64,000 nt of DNA from Maribacter halichondriae. Lineage in GTDB: Bacteria > Bacteroidota > Bacteroidia > Flavobacteriales > Flavobacteriaceae. A program made the position numbers and the translations under genes. The notes below the pieces were generated by a model. The model ran no database searches. It was not told the DNA's origin and saw only the letters and a list, made by a program, of their open reading frames with translations. The DNA is taken from NCBI RefSeq assembly GCF_027474825.1, contig NZ_CP107030.1, positions 3,972,001 to 4,036,000 of the forward strand, written 5' to 3'. This document shows, piece after piece, positions 3,914 to 12,173 of this stretch; the stretch's first letter is position 1, and every line of letters starts with the position of its first letter.

Positions 3914-4729
3914 ATGGACAAATTACCAAAAATTGCATTACCAGTGATATTCGTATTGATCGCGCTGGTTATTTTAATATCTAAATCCGCTGTCACCATT
4001 GGATCGGGTGAAGCGGGCGTACTTTATAAGACCTTTGGAGGCGGTGTCGTGACCGACGAACCACCTATGGGAGAAGGCTTTCATATTGTGGCACCATGGA
4101 ACAAGGTTTTTATTTACGAAGTACGTCAGCAAGAAGTATTTGAGAAAATGCAAGTATTGTCATCCAACGGCTTGGAGATTAAATTAGACGCTTCCGCATG
4201 GTTCGAACCAAAACGGGAATTTCTGGGAAAATTGCATCAAGAGAAGGGCACTGAATATATTCAACGAGTGTTGCTACCCACAATTCGTTCCGCTGCTCGA
4301 AGCGTTGTTGGCCGGTATACCCCAGAACAATTATATTCAAGTAAGAGAGATGCGATTCAAGCTGAGATTTTCGAGGAAACCAAAAAAATTGTGGATGGCC
4401 AATATATTCAACTGAACGAAGTATTGGTGCGAGATGTTACCTTGCCCGCAACCATTAAGGAGGCTATAGAACGTAAGTTGAAACAGGAACAGGAATCATT
4501 GGAATACGAATTTCGCCTTGTCACCGCACAAAAGGAAGCTGAAAAAGTTACTATCGAGGCACAAGGTAAGGCCGACGCGAATAGAATTTTAAGCGCGTCC
4601 TTGACCGATAAAATTCTTCAAGACAAAGGCATCGACGCCACCTTGGAGCTATCGAAATCTCCTAATGCTAAAGTCGTTATCGTAGGAGGTGGAGAAGCTG
4701 GTCTACCTCTTATTTTGGGCAATAACTAA
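3914..4729 (+). CDS. Prohibitin-family SPFH/Band 7 protein
   Basis: A 271-residue protein with an N-terminal membrane anchor (about residues 8-25), an SPFH domain (about 28-190), and a Glu/Lys/Gln-rich coiled coil (about 170-225) that includes a KQEQESLEYEFRL segment. The domain start GSGEAGVLYKTFGGG is typical of the prohibitin branch rather than HflK/HflC or flotillin. Prohibitin-like proteins form large ring assemblies at the inner membrane and affect protease activity and membrane organisation in better-studied systems. No protease gene is adjacent here. It follows the vWA-like membrane protein by 13 nt and is followed by the his leader region, so it is the last gene of its operon. Confidence 0.85.
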   Translation: MDKLPKIALPVIFVLIALVILISKSAVTIGSGEAGVLYKTFGGGVVTDEPPMGEGFHIVAPWNKVFIYEVRQQEVFEKMQVLSSNGLEIKLDASAWFEPKREFLGKLHQEKGTEYIQRVLLPTIRSAARSVVGRYTPEQLYSSKRDAIQAEIFEETKKIVDGQYIQLNEVLVRDVTLPATIKEAIERKLKQEQESLEYEFRLVTAQKEAEKVTIEAQGKADANRILSASLTDKILQDKGIDATLELSKSPNAKVVIVGGGEAGLPLILGNN

Positions 4730-4783
4730 TCCCTATCAGGTCGAGCATAGTTCAGACCTATCTATAAAAAGAGATATTTAGCT

Positions 4784-4813
4784 TTTGAGAATTGAAAATA
4801 AGTTTTACATTTA
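4784..4813 (+). promoter_or_regulatory. Probable promoter of the histidine operon
   Basis: TTTG at 4784-4787 and TACATTTA at 4806-4813 are separated by 18 nt, close to the Bacteroidota pattern TTTG-N19-TAnnTTTG (last base A instead of G). A start site about 5-7 nt after the -7 box would fall within a few bases of the leader peptide ATG at 4821, making the leader nearly leaderless. The start site is inferred. Confidence 0.5.
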
Positions 4814-4820
4814 CACCATA

Positions 4821-4874
4821 ATGAGAAAGAACAATACACATCATCATTTTTACCACTGCGCTCAAGCGAGGTAA
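4821..4874 (+). CDS. hisL: Histidine operon leader peptide (attenuator)
   Basis: A 17-codon ORF, ATG to TAA, encoding MRKNNTHHHFYHCAQAR. It has three consecutive CAT codons and a CAC within six codons, i.e. four His codons in 17. It lies about 160 nt before hisG and is followed by alternative RNA hairpins, as in classical transcription attenuation. When charged His-tRNA is scarce, a ribosome would stall on the His codons and change folding of the downstream RNA. This reading rests on the codon run, the hairpins and the position before hisG; no experimental evidence is available here. Confidence 0.85.
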   Translation: MRKNNTHHHFYHCAQAR

Positions 4875-4917
4875 AAATGTATTGTAGTATTACAACATAA
4901 TTTACGACCCGTTTGAG
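4861..4917 (+). promoter_or_regulatory. Predicted antiterminator of the his attenuator
   Basis: CTCAAGCG (4861-4868), inside the last codons of hisL, can pair over 8 bp (one G-U) with CGTTTGAG (4910-4917). The latter contains most of the 5' arm of the terminator, so the two structures exclude each other. A small hairpin (TTGTA / TACAA, 4882-4895) lies between the arms and would bring them together. A ribosome stalled on the His codons leaves 4861-4868 free; one that reaches the stop codon covers it and lets the terminator form. Confidence 0.7.
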
Positions 4918-4936
4918 AAATCAAGCGGGTTTTTTA
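4907..4936 (+). terminator. Attenuator terminator of the his operon
   Basis: A 10-bp stem, ACCCGTTTGA (4907-4916) with TCAAGCGGGT (4921-4930), has one G-T pair, a GAAA tetraloop and a T run. It lies between hisL and hisG. The 3' arm TCAAGCG repeats the sequence at 4862-4868 of the leader, as expected for competing arms. Confidence 0.85.
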
Positions 4937-4950
4937 ATTAGTATGTTTAC

Positions 4951-5018
4951 TGTCATTCCCACGAAGGTGGGAATCTGTTGAAAATTATTATGAGATTTCC
5001 CTCTTCAGGGAAATGACA
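4951..5018 (+). repeat. Palindromic intergenic repeat with a dRS3-like core
   Basis: The outer ends TGTCATTCCC and GGGAAATGACA are imperfect inverted repeats. Inside are a 20-bp ATTCCC-N8-GGGAAT palindrome (4955-4974), the form of the neisserial dRS3 repeat, and a second hairpin (TTTCCC..GGGAAA, 4996-5013). The element sits between the attenuator terminator and hisG. It resembles a small non-coding mobile repeat. Confidence 0.7.
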
Positions 5019-5032
5019 ATAAAATTAGTTTT

Positions 5033-5887
5033 ATGAAAATAAGAATAGCCATACAGAAGTCCGGGAGGCTCAATGAAGATTCGCTCAAAATCTTAAAAGA
5101 TTGCGGCATCTCCATCGACAATGGAAAAGATCAGTTGAAAGCCAATTCCAGAAACTTTCCACTGGAAGTCTTTTACCTCCGTAACGGCGATATTCCACAA
5201 TACCTGAGAGATGGCGTAGTTGATATTGCCATTATTGGCGAAAATGTTTTGATAGAGAAAGGAGAAGATATCGAAGTTGCGGAAAAGTTAGGCTTTTCAA
5301 AATGTAAAGTTTCGTTAGCCGTGCCGAAGTCAGTAAAATATGATTCGGTCAAAGATTTTGAAGGAAAACGTATTGCAACAAGTTATCCGAATACGGTGCG
5401 GAACTATTTGGAGAAAAAAGGAGTTAAGGCAGATTTGCACATCATTAGCGGTTCAGTAGAGATTGCTCCTAATATTGGTCTGGCCGATGCCATTTGTGAT
5501 ATCGTTTCCAGCGGAAGTACCCTTTTTAAAAATAACCTGAAGGAAGTCGAGGTCATGTTGAAGAGTGAGGCGGTCTTGGCCGTTTCCCCAAAAATATCCG
5601 AAGAAAGAAGGGCAGTACTAAAGAAAATACAGTTTAGGATAAAGTCCGTGTTACAGGCGCGACAATCAAAATATGTGTTGATGAACGCCCCAAATGACAA
5701 ATTGGACGCGATTCTTGAATTGTTGCCGGGAATGCGCAGTCCCACAGTGTTGCCACTGGCCGAAGAAGGTTGGAGTTCGGTACACACTGTAATCAATCAG
5801 GACAAATTTTGGGAGGTCATAGACGAGTTAAAACAAGCAGGGGCTGAAGGTATTTTAGTATGCCCAATTGAGAAAATGGTACTCTAA
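5033..5887 (+). CDS. hisG: ATP phosphoribosyltransferase, long form
   Basis: First, committed step of histidine synthesis: ATP + PRPP to N1-phosphoribosyl-ATP. At 284 residues it is the long, HisZ-independent form with a C-terminal regulatory ACT-like domain (about residues 205-284) that normally mediates histidine feedback inhibition. The N-terminus MKIRIAIQKSGRLNEDS and the PRPP-binding segment around ISGSVEIAPNIGLADAICD (about 138-156) are typical. ATG 5033 follows the palindromic repeat by 14 nt. It is the first structural gene behind the attenuator. hisD follows after 52 nt, a gap that contains another dRS3-like palindrome. Confidence 0.96.
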   Translation: MKIRIAIQKSGRLNEDSLKILKDCGISIDNGKDQLKANSRNFPLEVFYLRNGDIPQYLRDGVVDIAIIGENVLIEKGEDIEVAEKLGFSKCKVSLAVPKSVKYDSVKDFEGKRIATSYPNTVRNYLEKKGVKADLHIISGSVEIAPNIGLADAICDIVSSGSTLFKNNLKEVEVMLKSEAVLAVSPKISEERRAVLKKIQFRIKSVLQARQSKYVLMNAPNDKLDAILELLPGMRSPTVLPLAEEGWSSVHTVINQDKFWEVIDELKQAGAEGILVCPIEKMVL

Positions 5888-5900
5888 CTAATTTCTTGTC

Positions 5901-5920
5901 ATTCCCGCGTAGGCGGGAAT
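5901..5920 (+). repeat. dRS3-like palindrome between hisG and hisD
   Basis: A 20-bp ATTCCC-N8-GGGAAT palindrome with the same outer arms as 4955-4974 but a different centre. It is preceded by the same TGTC flank as the copy before hisG. Confidence 0.7.
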
Positions 5921-5939
5921 CTATATTAAAGTACTGATA

Positions 5940-7269: not shown

Positions 7270-8322
7270 ATGAGCAAAAATTTCAATATACAAAACCTGG
7301 TTCGAGAGAACGTAAAAGGTCTGAAACCCTATTCATCCGCGAGAGATGAATACGTCTCAGATGGGTCGGAGATGGTTTTTCTTGATGCCAATGAGAATCC
7401 GTTCGACAATGGAGTCAATCGTTATCCGGATCCTCAGCAGCGCCGTTTGAAGTCCGTTTTGGCCGAACAAAAGAAAATAGATACAAGAAATATTCTTTTG
7501 GGAAATGGAAGCGATGAAGTTTTGGATTTGTTGTTCAGAGCCTTTTGCGAACCAAAAGTTGACAATATAATTACGTTACCACCGACCTATGGAATGTACA
7601 AAGTATTAGCGGGCATTAATGACATTGAAAACTGCGAAGTACTACTAACGAACGACTTCCAACCAAATGTGGATGTAATATTGAGCAAAGTGGATAAAAA
7701 CACGAAAATGATTTTTATCTGCTCTCCGAACAATCCCACGGGAAATAGTTTTAACGAAATTGCTATTGTGGAATTACTGAAAGGTTTTATGGGCTTGGTA
7801 ATCATTGACGAAGCTTATATTGATTTCTTAGGAAAACAAAGCTGGATTTCAAAATTATCCGATTTTCCGAACCTAGTGGTTACCCAGACCCTTTCAAAAG
7901 CTTATGGTATGGCGGGGATTCGATTGGGTATCTGTATTGCTTCTGAAGAAATTATATCCATCTTGAATAAGATAAAACCTCCGTACAATGTCAATGAATT
8001 GACTCAGACACGGGCTCTGCGAAGGGTTTCCAATATATTACGGATAAAATCGGAGGTGTCGGAAATACTGGAACAAAAGAAACTTTTGATTAAAGTACTG
8101 CCAAAGATTGGTTTTGTGAAAGAAGTCTATCCTTCCGACTCAAATTTTCTATTGGTGAAGGTGGATGATGCCGATAAACGCTATGATCAATTATTGAAAG
8201 TGGGGGTAGTCGTTAGAAATAGAAGTACCCAGCCATTATGTGAAAATACTTTACGTTTTACGATAGGCACACCAGATGAGAACATAAAATTAGTAAATGC
8301 ACTTCAAAACCTTGGGTCTTGA
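7270..8322 (+). CDS. hisC: Histidinol-phosphate aminotransferase
   Basis: PLP-dependent class I/II aminotransferase converting imidazole-acetol phosphate and glutamate to histidinol phosphate. It has 350 residues. Motifs: FLDANENPFDNG near the N-terminus, SPNNPTGN (about 153-160), VIIDEAYIDF with the PLP-ring Asp and Tyr, and the Schiff-base Lys in TLSKAYGMAGIRLG. The GGGAGAGG end of the upstream repeat lies just before the ATG and may act as a Shine-Dalgarno sequence. hisB starts 31 nt downstream. Confidence 0.95.
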   Translation: MSKNFNIQNLVRENVKGLKPYSSARDEYVSDGSEMVFLDANENPFDNGVNRYPDPQQRRLKSVLAEQKKIDTRNILLGNGSDEVLDLLFRAFCEPKVDNIITLPPTYGMYKVLAGINDIENCEVLLTNDFQPNVDVILSKVDKNTKMIFICSPNNPTGNSFNEIAIVELLKGFMGLVIIDEAYIDFLGKQSWISKLSDFPNLVVTQTLSKAYGMAGIRLGICIASEEIISILNKIKPPYNVNELTQTRALRRVSNILRIKSEVSEILEQKKLLIKVLPKIGFVKEVYPSDSNFLLVKVDDADKRYDQLLKVGVVVRNRSTQPLCENTLRFTIGTPDENIKLVNALQNLGS

Positions 8323-8353
8323 ACTTGATTAAGGAATCATGATTAAAATTAAG

Positions 8354-9488
8354 ATGAAAAAAGTACTATTTATAGACCGCGACGGTACTATTATCAAAGA
8401 AACGGTCGATGAGCAAATCGATGCCTTTGAAAAAGATGATATTTTACCCTAAGGCTTTTTCCTTCTTGGGTAAGATTGCAAAAGAGCTTGATTATGAATT
8501 GGTCATGATTACCAATCAAGACGGATTGGGCACCGATGTATTTCCAGAAGAAACCTTTTGGCCTGTTCATAATTTCATCTTGAAATCCTTCGAGAATGAA
8601 GGCGTTGTCTTTGATAAAGTTTTTTTAGATAGAACCTTTCCTTCGGAAAATGCCGATACCAGAAAGCCAGGGACCGGATTGTTGACCGAATACTTTTCCG
8701 AGGATTATGATTTGAAGAATTCTTTCGTAATCGGTGACCGCTTAACTGATATGGAATTAGCCAAAAATTTGGGTTCTAAAGGAATTTTCATCAATGATGA
8801 AACGAATTTGGGCAATGGGGAAATAACCGTAAAACGAGATGAACTTGACAATCACATCGCTTTGGAAAGCAATGATTGGGAAAAAATCTACGAGTTTTTA
8901 AAGTTGGAGAATCGAGTTTCGGAAATTCGAAGGAAAACCAATGAGACCGACATTCAAATCAAATTGAATTTAGATGGCACCGGAAAAAGTGATATCAAAA
9001 CCGGATTGGCATTTTTCGACCACATGCTAGATCAACTTGCCCGCCACGGTCAAATGGATTTGGAAATCAATGTTGACGGTGATTTGGAAGTCGATGAACA
9101 CCACACTATCGAAGATACCGCGATTGCTCTGGGAGAAGTATTTAGCAAAGCCCTTGGCAATAAATTGGGTATCGAGCGCTATGGTTTCTGTTTGCCAATG
9201 GATGATTGCCTGGCCCAAGTGGCGATAGATTTCGGAGGCCGGAACTGGCTCGTTTGGGAAGCCGATTTCAAACGTGAAAAGGTGGGCGATATGCCTACGG
9301 AGATGTTCCACCACTTTTTTAAATCCTTTACCGATGGGGCAAAAGCGAATTTGAACATTAAGGCCGAAGGCAAAAACGAACACCATAAAATAGAGGCGAT
9401 TTTTAAGGCGTTCGCGAAATCCATTAAAATGGCTGTGAAACAGGATGTTGAAAAGATGGTTCTTCCATCTACAAAAGGCATGTTATAA
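8354..9488 (+). CDS. hisB: Bifunctional histidinol-phosphatase / imidazoleglycerol-phosphate dehydratase, frameshifted
   Basis: Two-domain HisB. The N-terminal HAD phosphatase starts [13 protein letters not shown] at ATG 8354, with the catalytic DxD in DRDGT, then TNQDGLGT and [14 protein letters not shown]. The dehydratase domain (about residues 185-377) has the metal-binding [21 protein letters not shown] and [12 protein letters not shown]. The first 27 codons are in a different frame from the rest. Removing one A from the A run at 8430-8434 joins them as ..[11 protein letters not shown].. and gives a 377-residue protein of normal length. A later in-frame start at 8409 would lose the catalytic DRDGT motif. 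Probably an insertion error in a homopolymer; if real, the phosphatase activity would be lost. The stop overlaps the hisH ATG (TAATG). Confidence 0.93.
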
Positions 9489-10068
9489 TGAACTTGGTCA
9501 TCATAGATTACGGGGCTGGCAACATCCAAAGCCTAAAATTCGCAATACAACGATTGGGCTACGAAGCTATTTTGAGCCATGACGCTGCGGAAATCCGTTC
9601 AGCGGATAAGGTTATATTTCCGGGGGTCGGAGAGGCCAGTTCGGCGATGAAAAAGCTTCGAGAAACAGGCTTGCAAAATCTTATCCCTACTTTGAAACAA
9701 CCGGTATTGGGCATTTGCCTCGGCATGCAATTGATGTGCAACCGTTCTGAGGAAGGAAATACTGAAGGACTTGGAATATTCGATGTGGACGTGGTTCGCT
9801 TTTCAAACGATGTCAAAGTTCCCCATATGGGATGGAATGTCGTTTCGAATCTGAAATCCAAACTTTTTTGGATGTAGCCGAAAATGAACACGTATACATG
9901 GTACACAGTTATTTTGCGGGTTTGTGCGATGAGACTATCTCTGAAACTGATTATCACGTTAAATACAGTTCCGCATTGGGAAAAGATAATTTTTACGGAA
10001 CGCAATTCCATCCTGAAAAGAGCGGTACTACCGGAGAACATATTTTAAGGAATTTTTTGAATATGTGA
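9488..10068 (+). CDS. hisH: Imidazole glycerol phosphate synthase, glutaminase subunit, frameshifted
   Basis: Class I glutamine amidotransferase subunit that supplies ammonia to HisF. The N-terminal part (9488 to about 9870) carries IDYGAGNIQSL, FPGVGEA and the nucleophile motif GICLGMQLM. The C-terminal part (to 10068) carries MVHSYF and the catalytic His-Glu in FHPEKSG. They are in different frames. Adding one T to the T run at 9864-9869 joins them as ..KLFLDVAENEH.. and gives 193 residues, the family size. Without it the protein ends at codon 129 and lacks two of the three triad residues. Likely a homopolymer deletion error. It overlaps hisB by 1 nt and the next gene by 1 nt. Confidence 0.92.
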
Positions 10069-10484
10069 TGATAGACGGTATCTACATAACATCTGATAAA
10101 TCCAAGTTAGATATTGCTTTCATTCATGACTATCTATCAAACCAGGCTTATTGGGCAAAGGGTAGGAGTATGGAATTGGTAAAGAAGTCCATCGAGAATT
10201 CATTGTGTTTTGGAGTATTTACATCGGATGAAAAACAAATAGGTTTTGCCCGGATCGCAACGGACTTCGTTGTTTTTGCTTGGCTCATGGATGCATTTAT
10301 TGATGAGGAATATAGAGGAAAGGGTATAGGCAAGTATTTAATTGAAACGATTGTAAACCATCATGAATTGATAAATGTAAACGGAATAGGGTTACGAACG
10401 AATGACGTTCATGAATTGTATAAACAGTTTGGTTTTGAGGAAATTCCCAATCCCGAAACCTGGATGCTAAGGAAAAAGAAATGA
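10068..10484 (+). CDS. GNAT family N-acetyltransferase embedded in the his operon
   Basis: A 138-residue single-domain GNAT protein. The acetyl-CoA-binding motif A is visible as [19 protein letters not shown] (R/QxxGxG/A loop at about residues 78-90) with a conserved Asn-rich C-terminal part ([17 protein letters not shown]). The substrate is unknown. The ATG overlaps the hisH stop (TGATG) and its own stop overlaps the hisA ATG by 4 nt, so it is translationally coupled inside the histidine operon. A GTG at 10065 is an alternative start one codon upstream. Nothing in the sequence shows a histidine-pathway role. Confidence 0.85.
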
Positions 10485-11206
10485 GAATTATTCCCGCAAT
10501 AGATATCATCGACGGTAAATGTGTGCGTCTCTCCAAGGGAGATTATGGCACGAAAAAGATTTACAACGAAAATCCTTTGGAGGTAGCAAAGGAATTCGAG
10601 GCGCACGGAATCCAGTATTTGCATCTAGTGGATTTAGACGGGGCAAAGTCCAAACATATTGTCAACCATAAGGTATTGGAACAAATCGCCGCCCAAACTA
10701 ATTTACAAATCGATTTTGGTGGTGGGTTAAAAACGGATGATGATTTGCGTATCGCTTTTGAAAGTGGCGCCAAACAGATTACAGGTGGTAGTATTGCCGT
10801 AAAGGATAAAGAAACCTTTATCCGTTGGATCGAATCGTACGGTACGGAGAAAATCATCTTAGGCGCTGATGCCATGGATGAAAAAGTGGCCGTTTCAGGT
10901 TGGCAAGAAGAATCGCAAGAAGAGCTGATTCCTTTTATTCTTGGTTATCAGGAAAAAGGAATTGAATATGTAATCTGTACAGACATCAGTAAAGATGGGA
11001 TGTTGGAAGGCCCCTCCTTTGATTTATATAGACGAATTTTGGAGAAATGCCACGAAATTAAGCTAATAGCCAGTGGCGGAATATCCACTTTTGACGAACT
11101 TCCAAAACTGGCAAAAATGGGTTGTGAAGGTACTATCATCGGAAAAGCGATTTATGAAAACCGAATCAGTTTAAAACAACTGGAAAACTATATACTAGCG
11201 AAATGA
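10481..11206 (+). CDS. hisA: ProFAR isomerase
   Basis: (Beta/alpha)8-barrel isomerase that opens the ribose ring of ProFAR to PRFAR. It is 241 residues. The N-terminus [19 protein letters not shown] holds the first catalytic Asp. The second half has [13 protein letters not shown] with the second catalytic Asp, and phosphate-binding glycines are seen in DFGGGLK and ASGGIST. It overlaps the GNAT stop (ATGA) and the downstream DinB-like start by 4 nt, so translation is coupled across all three genes. Confidence 0.95.
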
Positions 11207-11721
11207 GCAAAGAAGATCTTTTAAGGGAAGAATTGGTAAAAAACGCCTTGTACCGTTTAGATGAAAGCACCCGTATGATAAGTATAAGTTTGACCGAAAT
11301 TTCAGAAGAAGAACTTTGGCAAAAACCCAATGCATCCCTGAACAGTATCGCAAATCTAATTTTGCATTTATGTGGTAATATTACACAATATGTCATTTCC
11401 TCCTTGGGAGAAACAAAAGATATTCGAAATCGTGATCTGGAATTCTCCATAAAAGAAGGTGAAAGCAAATCGGAACTCCTTAAGAAGCTAGAGAAAACGG
11501 TCGATACGGCCAAACGGGTCATTTTCGATGCTTCCCAAGAACAATTGCTAAAAGGCAAGTCCGTACAGGGATTTTCTTTTTCAGGAATCGGAATCATTAT
11601 GCACGTAGTGGAGCACTATTCATACCACACGGGCCAAATCGCGTTTTGGGTCAAAGTGTTGAAAAACAAGGATTTGGGGTTTTATGATGGCCTGGATCTT
11701 AATGCCAAAAATAAAAGTTAG
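11203..11721 (+). CDS. DinB-like (DUF1572-type) putative metal-dependent protein
   Basis: A 172-residue protein predicted to form the DinB/YfiT four-helix bundle. Candidate metal-binding His residues occur in the early helix ([10 protein letters not shown], about residues 45-54) and in the late pair [13 protein letters not shown] (about 134-146), the usual DinB layout. Bacterial members are often thiol transferases with unknown substrates. It overlaps hisA by 4 nt and is followed by a degenerate-repeat spacer, so it ends the tightly coupled hisH-GNAT-hisA-DinB block. Confidence 0.8.
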
Positions 11722-11764
11722 GTACGAGGTACGAAATTGGAGGTACGAGGTATTAAATACGAAT
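11720..11764. repeat. Degenerate GGTACGAGGTACGAAAT repeat
   Basis: Imperfect tandem copies of a GGTACGAGGTA/GGTACGAAAT unit follow the DinB-like gene. The same unit recurs in many intergenic gaps of this window in both orientations. It is non-coding. Confidence 0.6.
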
Positions 11765-11822
11765 TACCATAAAAGCAAATTGGGGCTTAGAAGTATGAAT
11801 TACCAAATTTGAATATATTGTT

Positions 11823-12173
11823 GTGCAAGATTTAAAAGCCAGAACTAAAAGATTTGCTATTGATTGTTGGAGACCTTGTACTAAGATTCCGAAATCCCGT
11901 GAATATGATGCTTGGGTTCGACAGTTGATTAAAAGTTCAAGCTCAGTTGGAGCTAATTATCGTGCATCGCAAAGGGCTAAATCTTCTGCTGATTTTATAA
12001 ATAAACTCAAGATTGTTGAAGAAGAAGCTGACGAAAGTACATATTGGCTGGAACTTTTTTTGGAAGTGATGGATTCAAATCACCAAGAAATCAATAGATT
12101 GATAAAAGAGGGCAATGAGCTTTTGGCGATCACGGTGGCATCTATCAAAACGGTAAGAAAGAATAATAAATGA
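11823..12173 (+). CDS. Four-helix-bundle protein (S23/intervening-sequence family)
   Basis: A 116-residue protein of the family found in 23S rRNA intervening sequences and widely as free-standing small genes in Bacteroidota. Recognisable features are the RxKRFAI start, QLIKSSSSVGANYRASQRAKS (about residues 39-59), and ADESTYWLELFLEV (about 72-85). Start chosen at GTG 11823. Its function is unknown; family members are predicted to be oligomeric helical bundles. It lies between degenerate repeats inside the his operon and often behaves as a mobile or passenger gene, so its presence may reflect insertion. Confidence 0.8.
   Translation: MQDLKARTKRFAIDCWRPCTKIPKSREYDAWVRQLIKSSSSVGANYRASQRAKSSADFINKLKIVEEEADESTYWLELFLEVMDSNHQEINRLIKEGNELLAITVASIKTVRKNNK

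Follow-up and report, generated by a model that had tools for sequence, protein, structure and literature searches.

The his operon and its leader region

The window, a 64,000-nucleotide stretch of Maribacter halichondriae DNA, carries a his operon on the forward strand, with hisG (5033..5887; TIGR00070, 192.5 bits) as the first gene of the controlled operon, followed in order by hisD, hisC, hisB, hisH, hisA, hisF, and hisIE. Ahead of hisG we identified a short His-rich ORF on the same strand (4821..4874), running from an ATG at 4821 to a TAA at 4872–4874 and encoding in 17 codons the peptide MRKNNTHHHFYHCAQAR, with His codons at positions 7–9 and 12. Its 17 codons and HHHFYH run agree with the original prediction, and the genes lying behind it, hisG and the rest of the his operon, make the amino acid that such a leader would sense. 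The gene upstream of the leader is co-directional and has its stop at 4729, 178 nt ahead of the terminator described below.

Between the terminator and hisG lies a palindromic repeat (4951..5018, forward strand; TGTCATTCCC ... GGGAAATGACA), at the site where relatives carry a further RNA arm. A similar palindromic unit was found at 5897–5922 in the hisG–hisD spacer, the units of the two spacers having the repeat form TGTCATTCCC...GGGAATCT, and a unit resembling the window repeat is present in the hisG spacer of the related locus L002. Within the operon, hisB is seemingly split by a frameshift (8312–8420, with the N-terminus in another frame), as is hisH (9850–10065, cut after ~125 residues). 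An ilvD-like gene elsewhere in the same genome is split too, and the 3 cases together make assembly indels likely. The his cluster also contains a non-his ORF between hisH and hisA (within 10065–10484), acetyltransferase-like by eye, and 2 non-his ORFs between hisA and hisF (11203–12173).

A Bacteroidota promoter was predicted on the forward strand at 4784..4813, consisting of TTTG at 4784–4787, an 18-nt spacer, and a −7 box, TACATTTA, at 4806–4813, for which the flavobacterial consensus is TAnnTTTG (PMC9723704). The leader ATG follows the −7 box after 7 nt. The same boxes recur at a similar spacing in 4 related loci (L002, L003, L114, and L118), and of 106 loci whose promoter score exceeds the 95th percentile for shuffled sequence, 60 have a −7 box that ends at most 9 nt before the leader ATG. 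It is this promoter spacing, kept in a large group of relatives, that points to initiation on a very short 5′ UTR, which is plausible here and probably common to the relatives. A near-leaderless start, as originally proposed, is thus plausible for the window, with a predicted 5′ UTR of ~0–4 nt; leaderless mRNAs are in the minority among these bacteria, at 5.5 percent in Flavobacterium psychrophilum (PMC9723704).

The terminator and its competing helices

An intrinsic terminator sits between the leader and hisG at 4907–4935, with no other terminator-like site within 4700–5100. Its 5′ arm, ACCCGTTTGA (segment 3, 4907..4916), and 3′ arm, TCAAGCGGGT (4921–4930; segment 4, 4921..4935 with the T run), enclose a GAAA loop in a stem of 10 bp, folding at −16.7 kcal/mol (z −6.5; 0 of 200 shuffles as good). 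The stem had been described as exact; its 10-bp length and the T run hold, but a single G-U pair, T4912-G4925, makes it inexact.

The last leader codons contain a strand, CTCAAGCG (segment 2, 4861..4868), that can pair with CGTTTGAG at 4910–4917 over 8 bp, one of them G-U, to give an antiterminator helix that is mutually exclusive with the terminator. The fragment carrying this helix (4858–4919) folds at −17.4 kcal/mol (z −4.1). The alternative pairing put forward in the original prediction is therefore real, and the duplicated TCAAGCG, seen there as a sign of competition, was found at 4862 in the leader and at 4921 in the terminator 3′ arm. The entire leader folds far better than shuffled sequence (z −6.4). 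Segment 2 is itself enclosed by a 10-bp hairpin (the 1:2 hairpin, 4845..4879), in which 4845–4854 pairs with 4870–4879, and a longer-range extension joins the leader start (~4833–4840) to the region after the stop codon (~4883–4891). Neither this hairpin nor the fifth arm that relatives have near hisG had been noticed in the original prediction.

Conservation of the leader and antiterminator in relatives

HisG searches of related genomes returned 189 hisG loci, some of which represent the same genome twice (e.g., L002 and L110). A His-rich leader was present at the same position before hisG in ~180 of these 189 loci, a count in which a few matches from distant families may be due to chance; one locus, L027, has a weaker, HTH version. 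In 133 of 181 loci, the helix between segments 2 and 3 outperformed those of shuffled leaders (p<0.05); some distant loci failed the test. Between families and orders, the same pairing is formed by wholly different sequences (CTCAAGCG/CGTTTGAG, GGTAGGCC/GGCTTACC, and CACCACGGC/GCTGTGGTG), and further between-family pairs likewise differ in both strands (GCAGGTAG/CTACCTGT and GCGGTAGGCT/GGCTTACCGC). Inside Flavobacteriales, the covariation of segment 2 with its own versus swapped partners was modest (z 2.9) because segment 2 barely varies there, and the strong evidence is that between families. Between the leader start and the region after the stop, own partners outperformed swapped ones with a z of 11 (153 distinct sequences).

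In at least 4 loci (L018, L023, L122, and L181), a CAA codon in segment 2 is replaced by TAA or TAG, so that the peptide is shortened by the stop and the RNA arm is kept. The RNA, and not the peptide tail, therefore appears to be under selection, and these loci suggest a natural separation of peptide function from RNA function. Overall, relatives ranging from congeners to members of other orders in the class show conservation or covariation of the His codons, the leader position, the terminator, and the competing helix, and the His run and compensatory changes that the original prediction had proposed to look for in relatives were found over the same range. In 5 loci from distant families (L093 to L097), His-rich leaders precede hisG and no clear terminator was found; these leaders may possibly have another readout, such as translation.

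A fifth segment next to hisG in Flavobacteriaceae

Many Flavobacteriaceae carry, downstream of the terminator, a fifth segment with complementarity to the terminator loop and the upper part of the 5′ arm, as in L014 (GTTTGAGTAAA with TTTACTCAAAC), L053 (GTTTGAGCACA with TGTGCTCAAAC), and L012 (GTTTGAGACAA with TTGTTTCAAAC). Segment 5 mostly ends 13–20 nt before the hisG ATG, and in several Flavobacterium-type loci 24–26 nt or more before it. By shuffling, the segment was significant at p<0.05 in 86 of 181 loci and at p<0.01 in 58 of 181, and pairing of segments 3 and 5 with their own rather than swapped partners gave a z of 9.9 (41 distinct sequences), both of these procedures removing only part of the relatedness among the loci. 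When the stem alone was used to set the register, 218 of 309 loop cells were paired, against 154.7 (sd 6.6) in shuffled data, the maximum in 1000 shuffles being 175; on the HisG tree, the loop triplet underwent at least 38 changes. The 71 distinct 3:5 pairs comprise 565 Watson-Crick, 111 G-U, and 14 A-C pairs and 20 mismatches. Segment 3 is the richer in G and U, so the excess of G-U is partly compositional; even after composition is considered, the asymmetry between G-U and A-C favours a helix of the sense-strand RNA. Sign tests on independent pairs lean in the right direction, each being small and not significant one by one.

In a subset of loci, segment 5 is also complementary to the start of hisG, reaching p<0.05 in 35 of 160 with a swap z of 6.0; examples include TTTACTCA with TGAGTAAA and GTACTCA with TGAGTAC. 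In 24 of 144 loci, compared with 5.0 when swapped, a stretch of at least 7 nt from the hisG start recurs in the terminator 5′ arm and loop. Complementarity of segment 5 to the hisG start codon suggests a linked control of translation, as judged from these sequences.

No fifth arm was detectable in the window when tested (z −0.1), and none was present where the spacer between terminator and hisG is short among the loci compared; a G-U-rich version of the 3:5 pairing is kept in L003, a short-spacer locus of the same genus. With no fifth arm and a palindromic repeat filling the spacer, the window copy can be read as a plain transcriptional form.

Probable attenuation and alternative explanations

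We interpret the region at 4784–4936 as controlling the his operon by ribosome-mediated transcription attenuation, with a probability of roughly 0.92. The comparative data support the attenuator originally proposed, and the retention of the antiterminator pairing with completely different sequences elsewhere argues for classical ribosome-mediated His attenuation. From the anatomy and its conservation, we infer ribosome stalling, termination, and a response to histidine. When His-tRNA is ample, the ribosome would run to the leader stop (4872–4874) and cover 4861–4868, whereupon the terminator at 4907–4935 would form and transcription would stop. When His-tRNA is scarce, the ribosome would stall at codons 7–9 (4839–4847), masking the 5′ strand and breaking the 1:2 hairpin, and the freed 4861–4868 would pair with 4910–4917, allowing the polymerase to read through into hisG. 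If the leader is not translated, segment 2 would be held in the 1:2 hairpin, and termination would be favoured. The usual ribosome footprint extends ~15 nt ahead of the first base of the P-site codon. A ribosome awaiting His at codons 7–9 would reach ~4851–4857, so that 4861–4868 would stay free with the 5′ strand of the 1:2 hairpin masked, and one at the stop codon would cover ~4855–4884, the whole of segment 2. These predicted positions are the layout required by classical attenuation.

The co-directional gene ending 178 nt before the terminator raises a simpler account, in which the terminator merely ends that gene and the short ORF is there by chance. We rejected this account, which is very improbable, on conservation, since the leader, promoter boxes, and competing helix recur before hisG in ~180 loci. 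The terminated leader RNA could instead be a trans-acting small RNA that targets the hisG mRNA or other mRNAs, given that in relatives the terminator loop shows complementarity to the hisG 5′ region. The trp attenuator of Sinorhizobium meliloti reportedly has a trans-acting RNA among its products. Trans-acting products of that attenuator serve as the precedent (PMC7298713). However, the same covariation is explained by an interaction in cis, and segment 5 is absent from the window, which makes action in trans unlikely.

The remaining explanation adds to attenuation rather than replacing it: in the family, segment 3 would pair with segment 5 and thereby also set hisG translation, a layer that the window would have lost. 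Where the terminator forms, segment 5 could hide the hisG start of leaky transcripts (off), and under antitermination segment 3 would capture segment 5 and leave the hisG start free (on), a logic limited to lineages in which segment 5 complements the hisG start codon. The frequency of segment 5, its preference for its own partners, the composition of the pairs, the pairing and repeated change of the loop, and the matches to the hisG start all speak for this addition. Against it stand the absence of segment 5 from the window and at short spacers, the restriction of start-codon pairing to a subset, the relatedness left by swapping, the sign tests, and trp leaders in which no fifth segment was seen; the direction of its effect, too, is a prediction. 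Moreover, the 3:5 pairing is less stable than the terminator hairpin. We therefore rejected it as the lowest-energy state of the readthrough RNA, and it would require kinetic trapping or a pseudoknot that keeps the lower terminator stem. On balance, we place the chances of this second layer at about even. Equally balanced is the broader proposal that, in Flavobacteriaceae, his attenuators work as five-segment switches in which one ribosome-sensing event sets both transcription and translation, with the window as a stripped, transcriptional-only derivative; the leader, the terminator 3′ arm, and the strand beside the hisG start would then have the terminator 5′ arm and loop as a common partner.

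Comparison with known systems

An Rfam gathering scan of the window and a lax scan of 4750–5060 gave nothing above threshold; the best weak match, L10_leader, reached 26 of 44 bits and was rejected. The His_leader family (RF00514) was not matched at gathering or up to E 10, nor did the window his leader match Bacteroid-trp (RF01692) in the gathering or lax scan. Members of RF00514 have a His-rich leader peptide, alternative helices, and an intrinsic terminator before hisG. The window shares all of these with the enterobacterial his leader, whereas its arms are unrelated in sequence, its leader is compact (~120 nt), and a near-leaderless start is predicted.

RF01692 is matched in this genome by the trpE leader (L217), and the window attenuator shares with that family the phylum and the principle; RF01692 differs in having Trp codons, different arms, and, in trpE leaders inspected by eye, no visible fifth segment. 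The Trp attenuator of L217 lies at 1309–1422, upstream of trpE, with the leader MKRNKINTWWWNNLRTTS, and WWW leaders precede trpE in nearly all relatives examined. No consistent leader was recognised in ilvD upstream regions.

In the transcriptome of F. psychrophilum, signs of leader-peptide attenuation were seen ahead of amino-acid operons, and hisG is listed there among structured 5′ elements common to Flavobacteriaceae without Rfam hits (PMC9723704). That element resembles ours in being structured, located upstream of hisG, and without an Rfam hit, but the main-text passages on it give neither its anatomy nor segment 5 nor a phylum-wide comparison. Candidate His attenuators in some Firmicutes (PMC9413887) similarly have several His codons in a row, an antiterminator, and a terminator, but belong to a different phylum and are described as acquired or evolved separately in a few lineages. 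Given PMC9723704 and RF01692, the window attenuator is less new than the original prediction had implied. It is a genuine case of a well-known principle, and the fifth RNA segment next to hisG in many relatives, a family-level variant, seems undescribed.

Implications

The analysis compares in detail the anatomy of a His attenuator that is retained through much of the class Bacteroidia, in which initiation proceeds without Shine-Dalgarno sequences, such control has been little studied, and no his family in Rfam matches. Should the fifth arm function in the proposed way, termination and access to the start codon would be coupled in the same mRNA by a single RNA strand.
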